Shown here: piece after piece, positions 7,736 through 57,697 of the stretch | Layout of the letters: the number at the start of each line of letters is the position of its first letter | How positions within the stretch are numbered: position 1 is the stretch's first letter | Assembly: GCA_029783825.1 (NCBI GenBank) | Contig: JAREIK010001479.1 | Span: forward strand, 216,102 to 280,101 | Direction of reading: 5' to 3' | Length of the DNA: 64,000 bases | DNA from: Sapria himalayana | Lineage: Eukaryota; Streptophyta; Magnoliopsida; Malpighiales; Rafflesiaceae | Translations under genes and position numbers: made by a program | Notes under the pieces: generated by a model | What the model saw: the letters and a program-made list of their open reading frames with translations, nothing else | Told to the model about the DNA's origin: nothing | Databases searched by the model: none

Positions 7736-8223
7736 TTTAGAACTTTGGGATTAGGTTGAGACGACTGGAGAAACCAAAATTTCAGCAGCCTCGGACCTCT
7801 GTGTAACATTTTCATTTTCCAAATTTAAATAAGTGTCAGGTGTATTTGTCATTTTTTATGTTTTTTATTTTTTCCTAAGTTTTTCTAGAGAGAGAAGCTT
7901 TAGAGAGAGAATGTAAATAAAAATGTAAAATAAATTACCCGGTAAAAACAAATGAGGTCAGTCACGTGCAAGATGCACCGCAGGAAGCTCTGATGTTCAA
8001 AACTCAAATCGAGTTTCACGAAAATCTAAGCCAAAAGCAAAATCCCGAGGCCCGAGAGAGAGATGCACGGTTTATGCGAGAGAAAAAGTTTTGAGAGAAT
8101 TTATATTTTTGAAAAACATAAATGTTATAGAGAGGGGGGTAGAATTTATAAATTAAAGATATTAATTTTTTATTATTTTTTTATTATTTTTTTATTATTT
8201 TTTTGAATTTTTAATATATATTT

Positions 8224-8287
8224 AGGGGGCAGAATCACGAGGACCGTCGGATTCTGCCCCCTAGCCGTTGGAGGCGAATCCAACGGC
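8224..8287 (-). other. Two adjacent perfect hairpins upstream of hAT transposase
   Basis: Arms agggggcagaat (8224-8235) and attctgccccct (8251-8262) are perfect 12-bp reverse complements. Immediately next, gccgttgga (8264-8272) and tccaacggc (8279-8287) form a second perfect 9-bp stem. A decayed version of the same pair occurs at 44684-44745, in the equivalent position upstream of another hAT transposase. The role is unknown; transposase binding or leader-RNA structure are guesses. Confidence 0.75.
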
Positions 8288-8689
8288 TGAAATTCAATTA
8301 TATTTGAATTTTTTTTTCCCCATTGGGATTGGGTCGGGTGTCGGGACCGCGGGTGGGTCCAATCAGACCCAACCCGCGGTCTTTTTTTAGGCAGGGGCAG
8401 GATCACGCTCACGCCCACGCGTGCTCGCGTGAGCTCAAACCAGCACGGGCCCTGGCACGGGCCCAGGCACGGTTCAAAAACGTGTCGTGCCCCGTGTCGG
8501 GCCGGCCCGGCCCGGTTGACACCTCTACTTATTATTGACGTAGTAGAATATAACATATTGGTAGTCAACACATAATCTAACATTATATAGGCATAATTCA
8601 AATAGTATCTCACATTCATTTAAAATTTTATCTTTTTTTGGCTCGCTAACAAATAAAAACTATTAAACTCTTATTATCTACTAGGTATC

Positions 8690-48666: not shown

Positions 48667-50025
48667 TAAAAATATCAAAAATGTCATGTCATGCTAGCAC
48701 GACCCAATTTTTGGTGGCCAAGTCAAGCCACGGTGTCCGGTCTAACATGGCATGAGATGGGTTATCATGCATGTTGTGCTGACACGAGTTCATTACAAAT
48801 CAACCCGATAAGACTCAATTGCCTGCAATAGAGCACTTCCATGTCAAATCATGTCTAGTTGATTTAGAGATGTGTCAAGTGGTGTCAATTATGTGCAGCT
48901 GAAAGATCTAATTAAATTTGTTTAAAATATTAAATTCATTTTTATTAGAAATAATAAATATAAAAATAATAAAATTAAAAAATACAACACATTATAAATT
49001 TAAATGAATTAAATTGATATTAAAAAAAATATTTTATATTTTATTCAACTCTTGATAATGTATGAAAAAAAAATATAATCTAAAATGCTCAATATTGAAT
49101 GACAAACTAAAAAAACACAAAAACATAAATAGTAATAACTTATGAGCATAAAATCATAAATACATTATATAAGTAGAAATAAAAATAAAAAAAATATGCA
49201 TCACAATCACATGAGTTATCAGTCCATAACTATAGTATAGTAGTATAGATGCATAACATCATTATCATGTATAATTCTGAAAGTAACGCTAATAGTAACC
49301 TTAATATCATCGATGTCTTATATGTCATCATCTATTAATAACTTTTTTATTTTATTCTATATATTCTATCTTAAATCTTTTCAATTCTTCAAGCATGTAA
49401 ATACTTCTATGATATAGTCACAATTTGGATTTCCTATCAAAAATAATATTAATATAAAAAAAAATAGATTTTAATACTTTACTAGACAAATGAGGTGTTA
49501 GTAGATCATGTATTATTTTATATAACATGGAATAGATGAACTTATACGATTTCAATTAATTCAATATATCTAAATTCTTATTATCATATATAATCATATG
49601 ATAAGATAAAATAATAATTAATATCTAAGTATCGAAATAACACGCTTCTATTCATTAGACCACCTCATCGTTTGTTCCTAGCTAAATGAATAAAAAAATC
49701 ATCTCCGAATATGATATTTATATTTGTACTCAAAGTTTCACTATAATTATCATACATAGTATCATAAAATATAATAATGTCACTTAATTTAACGTGAATC
49801 AAACATTCAAATTAGTCAGCTTGGTTCATATAAGTAAATATATATCTTATTATCTTTAATACTTATTCCTCCTTAGCCCTAGAATTCATACAAGCAATCA
49901 AGCAATGAAGTATTTGAAAAAAAAAGACCGTGTAAATATGTTGTTTATATCTCAACAGTCATTATACTAAATATAATATATTCTTTATACTTGTTAAAGA
50001 TACGACTAATAATGTATATGCACCT

Positions 50026-50095
50026 TGTTGAATATAAGGTGGAACTGCTGAAGTCAGAAAAAAAAAGGTTTTCTCTATTTCTCTCTTTTTCAGCA
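50026..50095 (+). repeat. 5' LTR of short-LTR copia
   Basis: 70 bp, TGTTGAATATAAGG to TTTTCAGCA. The first 52 bases differ from the 3' LTR at two positions (G/A and C/T); the pyrimidine-rich tails differ more (CTCTATTTCTCTC against a pure TC run). There is little room for a normal promoter and terminator within 70 bp. Confidence 0.92.
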
Positions 50096-50110
50096 TGGTA
50101 TCAGAGCCAC
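50096..50110 (+). promoter_or_regulatory. Primer binding site (initiator Met-tRNA type)
   Basis: tggtatcagagccac immediately follows the LTR. TGGTATCAGAGC is the usual plant copia primer site, complementary to the 3' region of initiator methionine tRNA. Confidence 0.85.
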
Positions 50111-50159
50111 GGGAGAAAACCTAATTCTCTCCCGAAGCTTTCCGACCCATCGATCCACC

Positions 50160-50720
50160 TCTATGAAAACTTCTCCTCTGAAACTTGAATCAGAGAGGAG
50201 AACACGCTTCATCACTTCCAGAGCTTCTTTAACATCCTGAATATTTGGGGTAAAGCCATCGAGCGAAAACATTACGTCGCCACACCCGTCGACAATGAAG
50301 GAATCATAGCCATATTTCCGCATCACGGCTTCTTCGACACGAACATGAGCCATCGTATTGAACATGAAGGCATCGAAAAATGAAGGAGCCCCAACTGGAG
50401 TGATCATCAGCTCCTGAAAAGCAAGACAGTTATCTGCATGTGATCCACCATTAAGCAGCTTGCAAGAAGGAACAGGCAAAACTAGCGTCGCAGTGCCTGT
50501 AAGGTCCACCATGGGTTTGAGGAGAGGGAGATCCTTGACATAAGTTTGCATAATCAACTAGTTTTCTTGCCACATCTTGCACCGACGACACAACTTGCTT
50601 TGAGTTTGCGACCAGCCCCATTGCATTTTTCCAGTCTGCTTTTTCAATCACACTTGCCCAATCAGTTTGAAGAATTTCATTTTTCAGCCTTGCTAGAGAA
50701 ACTTATAATTTTTGGAATCC
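50160..50720 (-). pseudogene. Enolase-like segment captured in copia leader
   Basis: A minus-strand open frame (50557-50090, 155 codons) contains LVLPVPSCKLLNGGSHADN, LAFQELMITPVGAPSFFDAF, then KYGYD and LDGFTPNIQDVKEALEVMK. These align in order with enolase (the LPVPxxNxxNGGxHAGN, MQEFMxxPVGA and DEGGFAPNI blocks). Upstream sequence in another frame (KADWKNAMGLVANSKQVV and on to about 50720) may continue it across a frameshift near 50540, but that part does not clearly match enolase. Key residues are altered (DEGGFAPN reads SLDGFTPN), so no enzyme activity is expected. No introns are visible. It lies antisense between primer site and gag. Outer limits are approximate, and the last ~20 codons of the frame run into copia leader. 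A captured, processed fragment is the simplest reading; an insertion into the leader after copia arrival is the alternative. Confidence 0.75.
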
Positions 50721-50999
50721 ATGGAAATCAGGACTTGGACAGGAGCTGGAGCAGGCACAGTTAATTGAGGAACATAAACATAGCGTTATGAAGTGCTTTT
50801 CCTCCACCGTCAAGCCTTCCCAGCCCTGGAGATCATAAGAGAGGTCTACCTCCTCTGCCGTCTAGAACGAAGCTTTTCGACTATTTTTTTTCTCCACCCC
50901 AATACCTGCACGTGCCGTCGAAAGTGTTCTTCTACCTTTCGGGTGCTGTCACGCCACAATCTGAAGCTGTACTAGGGCTCTTTTTAATCTGAAGTAGAT

Positions 51000-53900
51000 A
51001 TGGCTGCTAAAACTTCCATTTTTTCCTCTATTATATCTGGATCTCCTATGATTACTTCGGAGAAATTGGTTGGCAGTGACAATTATCTTTCCTGGTCAGC
51101 TTCTGTTTAACTATGGTTTATGGGTCAAGGATGTGAGGATCACCTGGTTACACAGGAGACAGATATCTCTGAGGTTGACCGCGTACAGTGGAGGAAGATA
51201 GATGCCCAGTTATGTAGTATATTGTGGCAATCAGTTGATCATAAGATTCATCTTCATCTTCGGGCCTACAAAACTTGTTTTAAAATTTGGACTCAAGCTA
51301 AAGGATTATACACAAGTGATATCCAGCGTCTTTATAAGGTGACTTCTGCTATTGTCCATCTCAGCCAACAGGACTTGGATCTATTTACTTATATTAGCCA
51401 GATTGCTTCTCTTAAGGAAGAGTTCTTGACTGTGATGCCTCATACTTCTGATGTTGGGGCTCAACAAACACAGCTTGATAAGTTCTTCATGGTCCTTACT
51501 CTTATTGGCCTCCGTCCGGATCTTGAGCTTGTCCGCGATCAGATTCTTGGCAGTTCATCAGTTCCGTCCTTGGATGATGTGTTTGCTCGCCTCCTTCGTA
51601 TCTCGTCCACTCAGACTTTTCCATCTGATAGCACTTCAGATTATTCTGTGTTTGTTTCTCACACTACCACTCAAGGAGGCCGCAGTGATAACCGAGGTAG
51701 GGGCCAACGTCCTCATTGCACCTATTGCAATAAAATTGACCACACTCGTGATCGTTGCTATCAGTTACATGGACGGCCTCTTCGCAATGCCCATGTGGTC
51801 CAGTCCTCTGATTCTCAACTGCCTCAGCCTCCGAGCTCCTCCGCATCTCAGGCATATCAGTCTTATGTTGCCTCTGTTGCCCAGCCTGGTAATGCCTCTG
51901 TCTGCCTTACCCATACATTTTCTCTTGGATCCTGGATTCTAGATTCTGGAGCTTCTGATCACATATCTGATAATAAGGATCTTTTCTCCTCTATTTCTAC
52001 TACCTCTGCTTTACCTATTGTTACCTTAGCTAATGGTTCTCAAACTGTGGCTAAAGGTATTGGTTTGACCCTTCCTCTACCTACTCTACCTCTCACTTCT
52101 GTCCTTTATACTCCTAAATGTCCTTTTAATCTTATTTCCATCAGCAAAATCACTCGTACTCTTAATTGCTCTATTACCTTTTCTGATAAATTTGTGACCT
52201 TGCAGGACCGGAGTACGGAGAAGACGATTGACATAGGACGTGAGTCTCAAGGCCTCTATCACCTCACCTTGGATTCATCTCCTGCAGTTTGCATTTCCAC
52301 TGATGCTCCTCTCCTCATTCACAATCGTTTGGGCTACCCTAGTCTCTCCAAGTTCCAGAATATGGTTCCTCGTTTTTCCACTTTGTCGTCGCTTTCGTGT
52401 GAGTCATGTCAGTTTGGGAAACATACTCGTGTCTCGTTCCCAAAGCGTTTGGATAATCGGGCAAAGTCTTCTTTTGAGCTTGTCCACACTAATGTTTGGG
52501 ATCCTTTTCGGACTGCGTCTACTTTAGGATTTCAGTATTTTGTCACTTTTATTGATGACTATTCTCGATGTACTTGATTATTTTTAATGAAAAATTGAGC
52601 TGAGTTATTTTCTATTTTTTCAGAAATTTTATGCTGAAATCCAGACCCAATTCAATATTTCTATTCGTGTGTTACGCAGTGACAATGCCAGGGAATAATT
52701 TTCATCCCCCTTTACTTCATTTATGTCTCATCATGGGATTCTTCATCAGTCTTCTTGTGTTCATACTCCTCAACAAAATAGGGTAGCTGAACGCAATAAT
52801 CGACATCTTGTTGAGACAGCTCGTACTATCCTCCTCCATAGTAATGTTCCTCTTCGTTTTTGGGGGGAAGCTGTTCTTACCGCTTGTTATTTGATTAATC
52901 GTATGCCCTCCTCTGTTTTACATGATCAGATTCCTCATTCCCTTCTCTTCCCTGACCAACCACTTTATTTCATTCCTCCTTGTGTCTTTGGTTGTACTTG
53001 CTTTGTTCATATTCTCACTCCTAGACAGGACAAGCTTTCAGCCAAAGCCATGAAGTGTCTCTTCTTGGGATATTCCAGACTTCAGAAAAGTTATCGTTGT
53101 TATTCTCTTGAGACTCATTGCTACTTTATCTCAGCTGATGTTACTTTCTTTGAGGACTCAGCATTCTTTTCCACCACTTCTGAGTCTCTTCATGTTTCTG
53201 CAGTCTTGCTCATTCCCATTGTCTCTTCACCTGATGTTGTGCCTCCTCGACCACTTCAGGTTTATCATCGTCGCCCTCGTGTCGATGCTCCTCTGTCGTT
53301 TGCTGAGGCACCTGCTGACTCACTTCCTATCCCTTCGGCTTCTCCTGCCCTGGCTCCACCCTCTCCTGATGACTTACCCATTGCTACTCGGAAAGGTAAT
53401 CGCACTACTCGTAATCCTCATCCTATTTACAATTTTTTGAGTTATCATCGATTATCTTCACCCTATTCTGCTTTTGTCTCTGCTATATCCTCGGTTTCTC
53501 TTCCAAAGAGCACCCATGAAGCTCTTTCTCATCCAGGCTAGCGACAGGCAATGGTGGATGAAATGGCTGCTCTACACTCTAATGTCACTTGGAATCTTGT
53601 TGTTTTACTCTCTGGTAAATCTACAGTTGGTTGTCGTTTGGTCTATGCAATTAAGGTTGGTCCTGAAGGTCAGGTTGATTGCCTTAAGGCCGGCTTAGTT
53701 GCTAAAGGCTATACTCAGATTTATGGTTCTGATTATGCTGACACATTCTCCCTTGTTGCCAAGATTGCTTCTGTTCGCCTGCTTCTCTCCATGGCTGCTA
53801 TGTGTTCTTGGCCTCTTTATCAGTTGAATATTAAAAATGTCTTCCTTCATGATGATCTTGCCAAGGAAGTTTATATGGAGCAACCTACTGGTTTTGTTGC

Positions 53901-55037
53901 TCAGGGGAGTCTGGTTTAGTGTGCAAGTTATGCCGTTCTCTATATGGCTTGAAACAATCTCCTCGAGCATGGTTTAATCGTTTTAGTTCTGTTGTTCAAG
54001 AATTTGACATGTTTCGCAGTACAGCAGACCATTCAGTTTTCTATCATCATAACTCCTTGGGGCAGTGTATTTATCTGGTTGTTTATGTGGATGACATTGT
54101 CATTACATGCAGTGATCAGGATGGTATTCAGAAACTAAAACATCTTTTTACCTACTTTCAGACCAAAGATTTGGGGAAACTCAAGTATTTCTTGGGAATT
54201 GAGATAGCTCAATCTAGTTCCGGTGTGGTCTTTTCCCAAAGGAAGTATGTTTTAGACATCCTGGAAGATACTGGTATGTTAGATTGTAAACCGGTAGACA
54301 TACCTATGGATCCAAATGTCAAACTTGTACCAGGACAGGGGGAGCCTTTAGGAGACCCTGGGAGATATCGACGACTCATAGGTAAATTGAACTATCTCAC
54401 CATTACTCATCCAGACATTTCTTTTCCTGTGAATGTTGTTAGTCAATTCCTACCGTCACCATGTGATAGCCATTGGGATGCCGTAATCCGCATTCTTCGA
54501 TATATCAAAAGTACACCAGGCCAAGGTATGTTGTACAAGAACATAGGTCATACTCAAATTGTTAGTTACACAAATGCAGATTGGGCTGGCTCACCCACAG
54601 ATAGACGTTCCACTTCAGGGTACTGTGTTTTTATTATAGGTAATCTAATATCTTGAAAAAGTAAGAAACAAGATGTAGTAGCTAGATCTAGCGCTGAAGC
54701 TGAGTATCGAGTCATGGCTTTGGCAACATGTGAACTCATATGGTTGAAACATCTTCTTCGAGCGTTGAGATTTGGAAAGGATGAAGAGATGAAACTCATC
54801 TGTGATAACCAGGCCGCATTACATATTGCATCCAATCCAGTCTTTCATGAAAGGACCAAGCATATTGAAGTTGATTGTCACTTCATTAGAGAGAAGATCG
54901 TATCAGGATGTATTGCTACAAGTTTTGTTAATTCAAATGATCAACTAGCAGATATCTTCACTAAATCTCTCAGTTGTCCTAGGATTAAATACATTTGTAA
55001 CAAGCTTGGTGCATATGACGTATATGCTCCAGCTTGA
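51000..55037 (+). pseudogene. Copia gag-pol polyprotein, broken
   Basis: Begins MAAKTSIFSS at 51000. Gag extends to a zinc knuckle CTYCNKIDHTRDRC (about 51718-51760). Protease has WILDSGASDHIS (51930-51970). Integrase has the HNRLGYPSLSKF and CESCQFGKH zinc-binding parts (52320-52430), a core where the first catalytic Asp is replaced (VHTNVWDPF), then LRSDNARE and the Glu-containing VAERNNRHLVE. RT runs over about 53550-54300 with YVDDIVIT near 54090. RNase H has NADWAGSPTDRRSTSGY and RSSAEAEYRVMA. Stops are at 51108, 52575, 52596, 52696, 53539 and 54654, with frameshifts in the T run 52615-52620 and near 53905-53918. The final stop is at 55035-55037, just before the polypurine tract. Confidence 0.93.
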
Positions 55038-55044: not shown

Positions 55045-55118
55045 TGTTGAATATAAGATGGAATTGCTGAAGTCAGAAAAAAAAAGGTTTTCTCTCTCTC
55101 TCTCTCTCTCTCTCAACA
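55045..55118 (+). repeat. 3' LTR of short-LTR copia
   Basis: 74 bp from TGTTGAATATAAGA to TCTCAACA, containing an expanded TC microsatellite (about 55092-55114). Flanked by the second copy of cacct. Confidence 0.92.
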
Positions 55119-56959
55119 CACCTAAACACAATATAAATGATAGAAGTATACATAGATAAATATATATTTATTATATTATAAAAAAACTTTAAAATTTTAA
55201 TAAAAGAAATTTTTATATCTCAATTTAAATCATTAATAATAAACTTATAAATCTTATTATTAACATAATTAGATATCACATATTGATAATTAACATATGA
55301 TTCTAACATCTAGTGAATATAATTTCAATATCTCATATTCAGGATCGCTGACACATATATCTAATATAAAAAATTTTATCTAACAATTAATCTCTAATAG
55401 TTCTGATAAATATATTAATAATAATATTTTTATTTTAAATATTATAAATTATAATACTAAAAATTATATTCTAAATAATATATTTCTTTAAATATCATCG
55501 TAATACAATCATATATGACAATGTCATAATAAAGATAAAGGATTTAAAAAAATTTTATAATTTTTTTATTAAGTTACCACTTAAAATCTATATATGAAAA
55601 AGTATTACATGCAAATAATACATCATGACTAATTGATAAGTCAGACATCACAAACACGACTTTGTTATATTTATTAAATTTATTAATATAAATAATTTTT
55701 TTAATTTATAATATCTTATTTTATCATTCTTATTAGTAGATATAAGAATTCTATGATAAAAAAATTAGAAATAGATCTACATAATATTGATTATCATGTA
55801 ATCCTCCCAAAATCTAATTAAAAAACTCATAAAAATAATCAATTTAATAATATCTTTCCTTTCAAAGTCATTATTATAAATGAATAAGATCAATTAATCT
55901 GAAGTTGATTTAATTTCAAAAGCTTTTCCACTCAGTTAAGTTTGCTTAGGATTTAATGCATCATCTTTTTATAGTGCATTGATCAAATATCTCTTAATAT
56001 GACAATTTCACTAGTTCTCCTATATGCACATATATTTTTATAATATATACATAATTTTTTTTAACATTCCTAAAAATTTTATTTTTAATTATGTTAAATT
56101 GAATTCAAACTGATGAAATTCAGCTAATTTTAGATTTTTTAAGCAAATTGGTCAAGGGCAATGAAAGGCACACGTACCATAATAGCATAACTTTATTTGA
56201 TCAACAGTCATAATCCATCTCTTTTTATAAACTAACAAACTCATAACATAGAGCCAACAACACAACTGAGTAGAGAAAAAGAAGATATAAGAAATGAAAA
56301 TCAAAAAAATAAGAAATAAAAAAGAGGAAAGAAAAAAAAAAGATAAAATAAATTTCATAAATATCAAAAAAAATTATATTCTATATTTTTAAAAATTTTA
56401 TATATTAAAATTATATTTTTTTTATTTTTTTTTATTTTTTTTTATTTTTTTTTATTTTTTTAATATTTAAAATGGGTAGAAATTCCACAATCATTGGATT
56501 TGTGCATAATAGTCATTGGAATCAAATCTGATGACTACAAATAATAAAAATAAAAGCTAATTTTTTTATTTTATTATAGACATTGATAGTGATGGGCACA
56601 ACCTATCACTTTCGTTGTCGAGCCCGATTACACAAACATAATGGGCAATGGCCAAGGAGAAGCTGGAGGCTCATAGTTTTTTTTAAAAAAAAAAAACCCA
56701 TGAGGCAATGACCCGTTGCCCATTCATATTGCTTGTGGATCATACCAATAAACTAGGCATGCATGTCGTGTCTGGCCCAGCACGAGACACAGTTGGATCC
56801 GACCTATAATGGCATGTGTCATGTCATGAGTCGGCAAGAACATGATCCATGAATGATTATGGATTATGTCGGATCAAGCCTAACCCGACTATTTCTAGTC
56901 ATGCCTCATGTCGTGTCTGAACCACCTAGCACATGTGACACCTCTACCAACACTCAGAA

Positions 56960-57697
56960 TTTTGTGAACAAATACCATGAATTTCAAGAAAGTCTATTGT
57001 TTTATTGTAGGTGGATGAAACATATTCATATGAAAGGTATTTGATGTGGAATACTAGGACATTTACTATTTAGTGGCCAAGATGATCATAATATATATTC
57101 TTATTTCTCTTACAGTATCTCACAATTATATGATATACTAGATAAACATGAAAAATATATTTGTTCATGATAATCTTAAGAATAAGATATTTTTAGAATA
57201 ACCAACAAGATTTTGAGCAGTACAATAAATTTTTAAACAAATAATCATCTCATTTGAGTTACATAGGTAGATTATTAATTTTTTTTATACTTTCAAAAGA
57301 TTCATGAAGCCAAGATATTTGTTGATTGTCTACGTGAAAGATAATCAGATTACTAGAGATGACATTGATAATCACTCAATTCAATGAGAACTTTTATACA
57401 CAATTTTAAGTGAATGACTAGTGAACTAGTATCGTAGTCTTTGTAAAAATTTATTATTTGTTTAGGGTAGGTATTCACGGTGAAACAAATTTAGATAAGA
57501 AGGTAGTCATCTTAATGCGAGACTTGTAGCGAGAAAAAATAATTATATATTTGATGTAGACTACTAGGAAACTTATTCTCTAGTAGCTAAGATGATCACG
57601 GCATGTATTATTATTTCTCTTATAAAATCTCAAGTTGAAGTATATACCAGTTAGACATAAAAAATATATTATTTCAATAGCCAATTTTAAAAGATAT
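56960..57697 (+). pseudogene. Copia reverse transcriptase fragments, duplicated
   Basis: Two decayed copies of the same RT block lie at about 57035-57240 and 57545-57690. Both carry the YxxETF...A/GKMIT and SQLxxxDIKxxFVHD stretch in broken form (shared agctaagatgatcaNgg and cttatttctcttaNa words). Between them, a FLIVYVKDNQITRDDID remnant near 57320-57370 corresponds to the YVDD region with the first Asp changed. Plus strand, intronic. It resembles the fragment at 10930-12297. Confidence 0.6.

Follow-up and report, generated by a model that had tools for sequence, protein, structure and literature searches.

Host-gene pieces, mostly antisense, in the leaders of a copia retrotransposon family of Sapria himalayana

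Accounts of host-gene capture by LTR retrotransposons usually concern single events that are already complete. As one review describes it (PMC13317346), maize Bs1, an LTR element, contains pieces from three host genes. A survey of the maize B73 genome (PMC2774510), which counts Bs1 among low-copy elements, gives 425 LTR elements with nuclear gene fragments and at least 189 captures, and states that under its conditions no element combined fragments from two or more standard nuclear genes. Orientation is dealt with in another source (PMC7264820), according to which genes acquired by transduction usually read in the same direction as gag-pol, and the antisense additional ORFs of Grande, RIRE2, Retand and PvRetro13 are conserved within families, sit downstream of pol and upstream of the 3′ LTR, and reportedly have related genes in transposable elements only. 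A different type of example is the abnormal template switching described for BARE-2 and Veju, in which reverse transcriptase jumps between packaged RNAs (PMC13317346). A study covering rice and sorghum (PMC3726574) has neither the word antisense nor the word orientation in its main text. A leader patchwork of the kind presented here appeared in no title or abstract found in the literature searched, which, as most subscription journals lie outside it, is weak evidence of absence.

The DNA analyzed, the window, is a stretch of 64,000 nucleotides from Sapria himalayana (assembly GCA_029783825.1, contig JAREIK010001479.1, positions 216,102 to 280,101). It contains a Ty1/copia LTR retrotransposon with short LTRs of TG...CA form, the 5′ LTR (70 bp, 50026-50095, plus strand) being a direct repeat with the 3′ LTR (74 bp, 55045-55118), and with the same 5-bp target duplication, CACCT, to its left (50021-50025) and right (55119-55123). 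The primer binding site (PBS), assigned from its sequence (TGGTATCAGAGCC..., 50096-50113, plus strand), is presumably of initiator Met tRNA type. From its start to the gag ATG at 51000 extends a leader (50096-50999) of about 900 bp, the length originally predicted, and this is the patchwork region with which the present work is concerned; its 3′ part, 50887-50999, is, from sibling comparison, common to different leader types. The gag-pol region (51000-55037, plus strand) is broken, with an in-frame TAA at 51108-51110 in gag and with pol split over several frames, so that the copy, lacking an intact gag-pol, does not qualify as autonomous. Its Pfam domains are GAG-pre-integrase, Pol_BBD, an SH3-like domain and RVT_2, and the order is that of copia elements, GAG-pre-integrase (PF13976, E=8.5e-14) being followed by PF07727 (E=9.9e-25 and 1.2e-28). 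In each of the four family copies for which both ends were examined, the 5-bp target duplication is perfect: CACCT in the window, TTGAC in the sibling on contig C1928, and GATAC and TTTAT in two further siblings (C numbers denote contigs, and L numbers fetched loci, of the same genome). A plasmid collection queried with 50000-52000, and viral contigs queried with one exact LTR pattern, each gave zero matches. Elsewhere in the window, an 85-base sequence occurs twice within 57038-57632, the copies being 79% alike and spaced 510 bases apart.

Within the leader, the minus-strand ORF 50557-50090 (155 amino acids) had been predicted, from its motifs, to be an intronless, enolase-like piece with an altered catalytic loop. 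Enolase is indeed its best match, both with Pfam (Enolase_C, E=1.4e-19, 71 bits, cut-off 21.5) and among PDB structures (E=8.4e-20); no plant relatives were noticed among the hits of the enolase protein searches. In the source genome (2.06 Gb, 18,497 contigs) the whole ORF was matched at two places, the window and C1928, among the 150 scored of 630 candidates. A parent gene on contig C2838 matches 50153-50511 (minus strand) exon by exon: the window piece consists of five parent exons joined exactly, with 350 of 359 bases identical and no indel, and all four parent introns (104, 91, 114 and 103 bp, one GC-AG and three GT-AG) are absent from it, as the prediction of an intronless piece would have it. 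The piece was, therefore, copied from spliced mRNA and represents cDNA from a gene located elsewhere. The remaining enolase bases, 50512-50540 (minus strand), read DLPLLKP... in frame with the Enolase homology and represent an upstream exon, though the parent exon for these approximately 30 bases was not located. The C1928 piece is identical to the parent at 351 of 363 bases and carries one stop codon. Since the element on C1928 has a different target duplication, the enolase piece was already inside the element when it moved, and mobilization with the element, earlier put forward as something that could have happened, is what occurred; no target duplication of its own was noticed around the piece.

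The active-site loop reads DGCGDVMFSLDGF both in the capture and in its parent, at the place of the GDEGG motif that we take to be the general-base loop of enolase, and an active-site loop with the general base, as expected of a catalytically active enolase, is thus present in neither. The altered loop that had been noted is accordingly inherited, and did not arise after capture. The parent enolase-like gene (L010 4671-6730) continues with further enolase exons, its N-terminal exons not being found in the 9.9 kb fetched, and, with the usual active-site motif absent, may encode a non-catalytic enolase relative. A high-copy repeat also carries a piece of the same gene, in this case genomic and intron-containing, and most of the 150 scored matches to the enolase query are to the single exon in it. 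Nine fetched copies (L011-L013 and L018-L023, on contigs C927, C1365, C2598, C2767, C215, C2205, C1733, C3581 and C399) have 198-334 aligned bases with 84-90% identity to the enolase-like gene, among the matches listed. As a source of the cDNA these repeats were rejected, because the nine hold genomic DNA with intron sequence at that level of identity. This host gene was apparently taken up on two occasions and by different routes. In one repeat copy, L011, there are a decayed remnant of an RNase H of the reverse-transcriptase type and, at the edge of the repeat (8005-8559, plus strand), a 184-amino-acid intronless open frame which we take to resemble an ARF-type small GTPase.

The interval 50160-50720 had been assigned to enolase as a whole. 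The assignment holds up to 50540; from 50539 to 50731 the sequence is a lipase-family cDNA piece, and from 50731 to 50774 a piece from an RRM protein. The enolase-like, antisense, intronless and mobilized character of the segment stands, but the description was incomplete, enolase being one of at least four host pieces and lying inside an older antisense capture of R2 (the ribonucleotide reductase small subunit). The window copy thus has pieces of more than one host gene, namely R2, enolase, lipase and RRM, all on the minus strand. R2 is represented by a left remnant at 50147-50161, common to R2-type siblings and overlapped by the final bases of the enolase piece, and a right remnant at 50778-50873. 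As read in the window the scrap is weak (Pfam Ribonuc_red_sm 19.7 bits, E=6e-4, below the cut-off of 33.6, and no PDB match), while in sibling L044 the same capture, also antisense, scores 151 bits with Pfam (E=5.4e-44) and matches R2 in PDB at E=1.8e-40.

The lipase piece (minus strand, reading SLARLKNEILQTDW followed by ASVIE...) has its parent exon on C5691, which starts directly after an intron acceptor, ...TTTAACAG. The piece leaves the parent exactly there, and in sibling leader L027 an upstream lipase exon is joined at that point, from which it follows that the piece comes from spliced RNA. The best relative of the parent, a maple homologue with 57% identity, has the joined sequence contiguously, with 40 of 53 residues identical to the window's own reading; in a second plant relative, P0099, part of the joined stretch is missing. 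The related proteins come from plants, and some of them contain Lipase_3 (PF01764); the parent exon itself has no match in Pfam or PDB. With a composite query, 21 of 22 genomic candidates matched the lipase piece, 10 of them near full length, of which five are in fetched copia copies. Spliced host sequence inside the LTRs, with the parent elsewhere, is therefore on hand for two of the seven modules recognized in the family, enolase and lipase.

Four of the seven identifications are secure, and three (RRM, DUF1977 and WD40) are marginal. The RRM piece (VPQLTVPAPAPVQV, minus strand in the window, and the same as part of an RRM-bearing segment in L015) scores 20.8 bits for a Pfam cut-off of 20.7. 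WD40 has 23.8 bits for a cut-off of 27 and, as best E value, 4e-6 to the DCAF4 propeller, below the cut-offs, and DUF1977 has 24.8 bits on L035 and 18.8 on L031 for a cut-off of 23.4. The U5-40K piece in L036 matches the U5 40-kDa protein at E=2.1e-19, where L033 alone would have given weak WD40-type Pfam matches only. Enolase, R2, lipase, RRM and WD40 are antisense (five of seven), and U5-40K and DUF1977 are in the sense orientation; the latter two disposed of the idea, held after three siblings, that the orientation is uniformly antisense.

For comparison across the family, 33 loci were used, comprising the best 30 of 40 scored (542 candidates, the window included) and three more; 28 of the leaders mapped have a readable PBS and are 338-905 bases long, and five are at other loci. 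The loci were chosen by similarity to the window, so that the counts are not those of a random sample, and two of them, L031 and L032, being almost identical, may represent a single duplication. The leaders of siblings have both ends in common and vary in the middle. Host-gene pieces are present in 25 of the 33. The eight without are six base leaders with no recognized module and two unclassified leaders, L050 and L051. Otherwise, a DUF1977 piece is present in six, uninterrupted R2 in two (L044 and L047), R2 joined to base leader in two, R2 with RRM in the absence of lipase or enolase in one (L015), R2 with lipase and RRM in five, R2 with U5-40K and lipase in five, R2 with WD40 in two, and enolase together with lipase and RRM, flanked by R2 remnants, in two, the window and C1928, the latter being the result of the search originally suggested for other copia copies with the insert. 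Because the pieces are nested, their order of arrival can be read: R2 came first, RRM entered inside R2, lipase replaced parts of both, and enolase or U5-40K arrived at the lipase/R2 boundary. In a gag-side tree (with midpoint root only) the 12 lipase-bearing leaders belong to a single 14-row group (support 96/87), whose other two rows are L050 and L051; the two enolase copies are unpaired in this tree, in which only three of 30 inner branches are well supported. In L009, L014 and L015, where most of the element is in hand, the remainder is colinear with the window and has no other large insert, L014 being without about 95 bases relative to it; L016, outside this comparison, is without a larger block of the coding part, 51784-53240. 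The possibility that the base leader is a further captured gene was dropped, four of the six frames of base leader L045 giving no Pfam match. The leader of L050 upstream of gag is unlike the others and has short GGCAACGCGACGCA-type repeats, and those of L026 and L036 have an extra stretch of about 30 bases (GGCGCAGCGGAA...) directly after the PBS.

Capture at the RNA level (enolase and lipase), mobilization, and repeated replacement in one interval are demonstrated by these comparisons. The probable explanation is that the window element is a copy from a large copia family with short LTRs whose leader was repeatedly patched with host-gene pieces by template switching onto host mRNAs. An alternative, that one chimaeric host transcript containing R2, lipase, RRM and enolase was captured once and that siblings then lost parts by deletion, would account for the pieces in the window all being on one strand, but it is extremely improbable and largely refuted by the nested order: L044 and L047 carry uninterrupted R2 alone, L015 has R2 with RRM and neither lipase nor enolase, U5-40K, WD40 and DUF1977 are at the same place with two of them in the other orientation, and the enolase and lipase parents are on different contigs. 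A different proposal, unlikely overall, is that separate retrocopy, Pack-type or Helitron insertions entered an integrated copia copy that transposed onward. Relevant here is a 14-base direct repeat, CGAAGCTTTYCGAC (13 of 14 alike, 50133-50146 and 50868-50881), which brackets the R2-derived block and could be the target duplication of the first (R2) capture, with a run of eight T two bases beyond its right copy; retrocopy insertion is, on account of the repeat, a possible route for R2 alone. However, a minus-strand insert with a poly(A) tail should have its T run at the left repeat, which lacks one, and where the window has the right-hand run, five T are already present in the base leaders L038, L039 and L045. 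Neither was any inverted repeat of more than 10 bases, of the sort that Pack-type insertion would call for, found in the window leader, introns are gone from both pieces with known parents, and several events would all have to hit one interval of 338-905 bp in an element of 5 kb.

The junctions are of limited help. Exact overlap with the donor is one base at each of the two testable junctions and six bases (ACGCGC) in the R2/base recombinant leader L049, with the enolase left junction being alike at eight of nine bases (ATCCACC[T/C]C) and not exact; microhomology is thus not a strong argument, and the notion of strong microhomology was given up. Under the template-switching explanation, reverse transcriptase in the particle would leave the leader for a host mRNA packaged with it and then return. 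An mRNA copied during plus-strand synthesis, right after the strand transfer at the PBS, would yield an antisense piece, and one copied during minus-strand synthesis a sense piece. The chimaera would then integrate and be copied onward, with later jumps patching earlier patches. The same antisense result would be obtained if host first-strand cDNA were copied during minus-strand synthesis, and the plus-strand timing, being deduced from orientation alone, is suggested accordingly with reserve. A more general proposal, that the stretch behind the PBS is a preferred entry for host mRNA in this family, that the growing plus strand, after the second strand transfer, switches to such an mRNA and comes back, leaving host genes in antisense, and that sibling leaders form a dated, nested log, is put forward tentatively, as less probable than not. 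Whether the pieces are kept for a function, such as antisense RNA against host genes or a changing, hard-to-silence leader, also merits consideration. The enolase piece, antisense to its host gene, has 97.5% identity to it, and lipase-bearing leaders have been copied onward, but replacement and truncation of modules recur, a stop codon interrupts the enolase piece of C1928, and six base leaders manage without a recognized module, so that selection of this type is quite unlikely and the pieces are most likely passengers.

The pertinence of the mostly antisense pieces is that they point to plus-strand synthesis as the capture step, one that to our knowledge is seldom considered in this role. The leader RNA of the window, if made, would be complementary to host mRNA over about 350 bases. 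As one genome retains two donor genes, leaders from before capture and a number of intermediate stages, the timing and strand of the enzyme's jumps become testable, and the leaders of the family constitute a natural record of repeated gene capture.

Comparison with Bs1, made in the original prediction, is apt as to multiple captures: by the review's description (PMC13317346), that element, like the window element, has pieces of several host genes inside one LTR element. In Sapria, by contrast, the larger family search gave 150 scored copies of 1,050 candidates, combinations differ from copy to copy and the nested order is readable; set against the review's gene count for Bs1, the pieces are in the leader before gag, with five of seven modules antisense. 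Elements of the maize B73 survey (PMC2774510) are, as that source presents them, of the same kind, LTR elements with gene fragments, whereas the window copy has four genes. The gag-pol orientation given as usual for transduced genes (PMC7264820) is not followed by five of the seven Sapria modules, though U5-40K and DUF1977 conform to it. With Grande, RIRE2, Retand and PvRetro13, as that source describes them, there is likeness in the presence of antisense coding sequence within the element, but the Sapria pieces are in the leader, change between copies and are derived from host genes. The parallel with BARE-2 and Veju is gain of new sequence by a jump such as that proposed for the Sapria leader; there, on the review's account (PMC13317346), the donor is another element or unknown DNA, while in Sapria the donors are host genes, two of them demonstrably as spliced mRNA, repeatedly and in one interval. 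Gene capture by an LTR element is itself a known process; what is unusual in this family is the form it takes, with serial captures that are confined to the leader, are mostly antisense and build mosaics of as many as four genes in one element.
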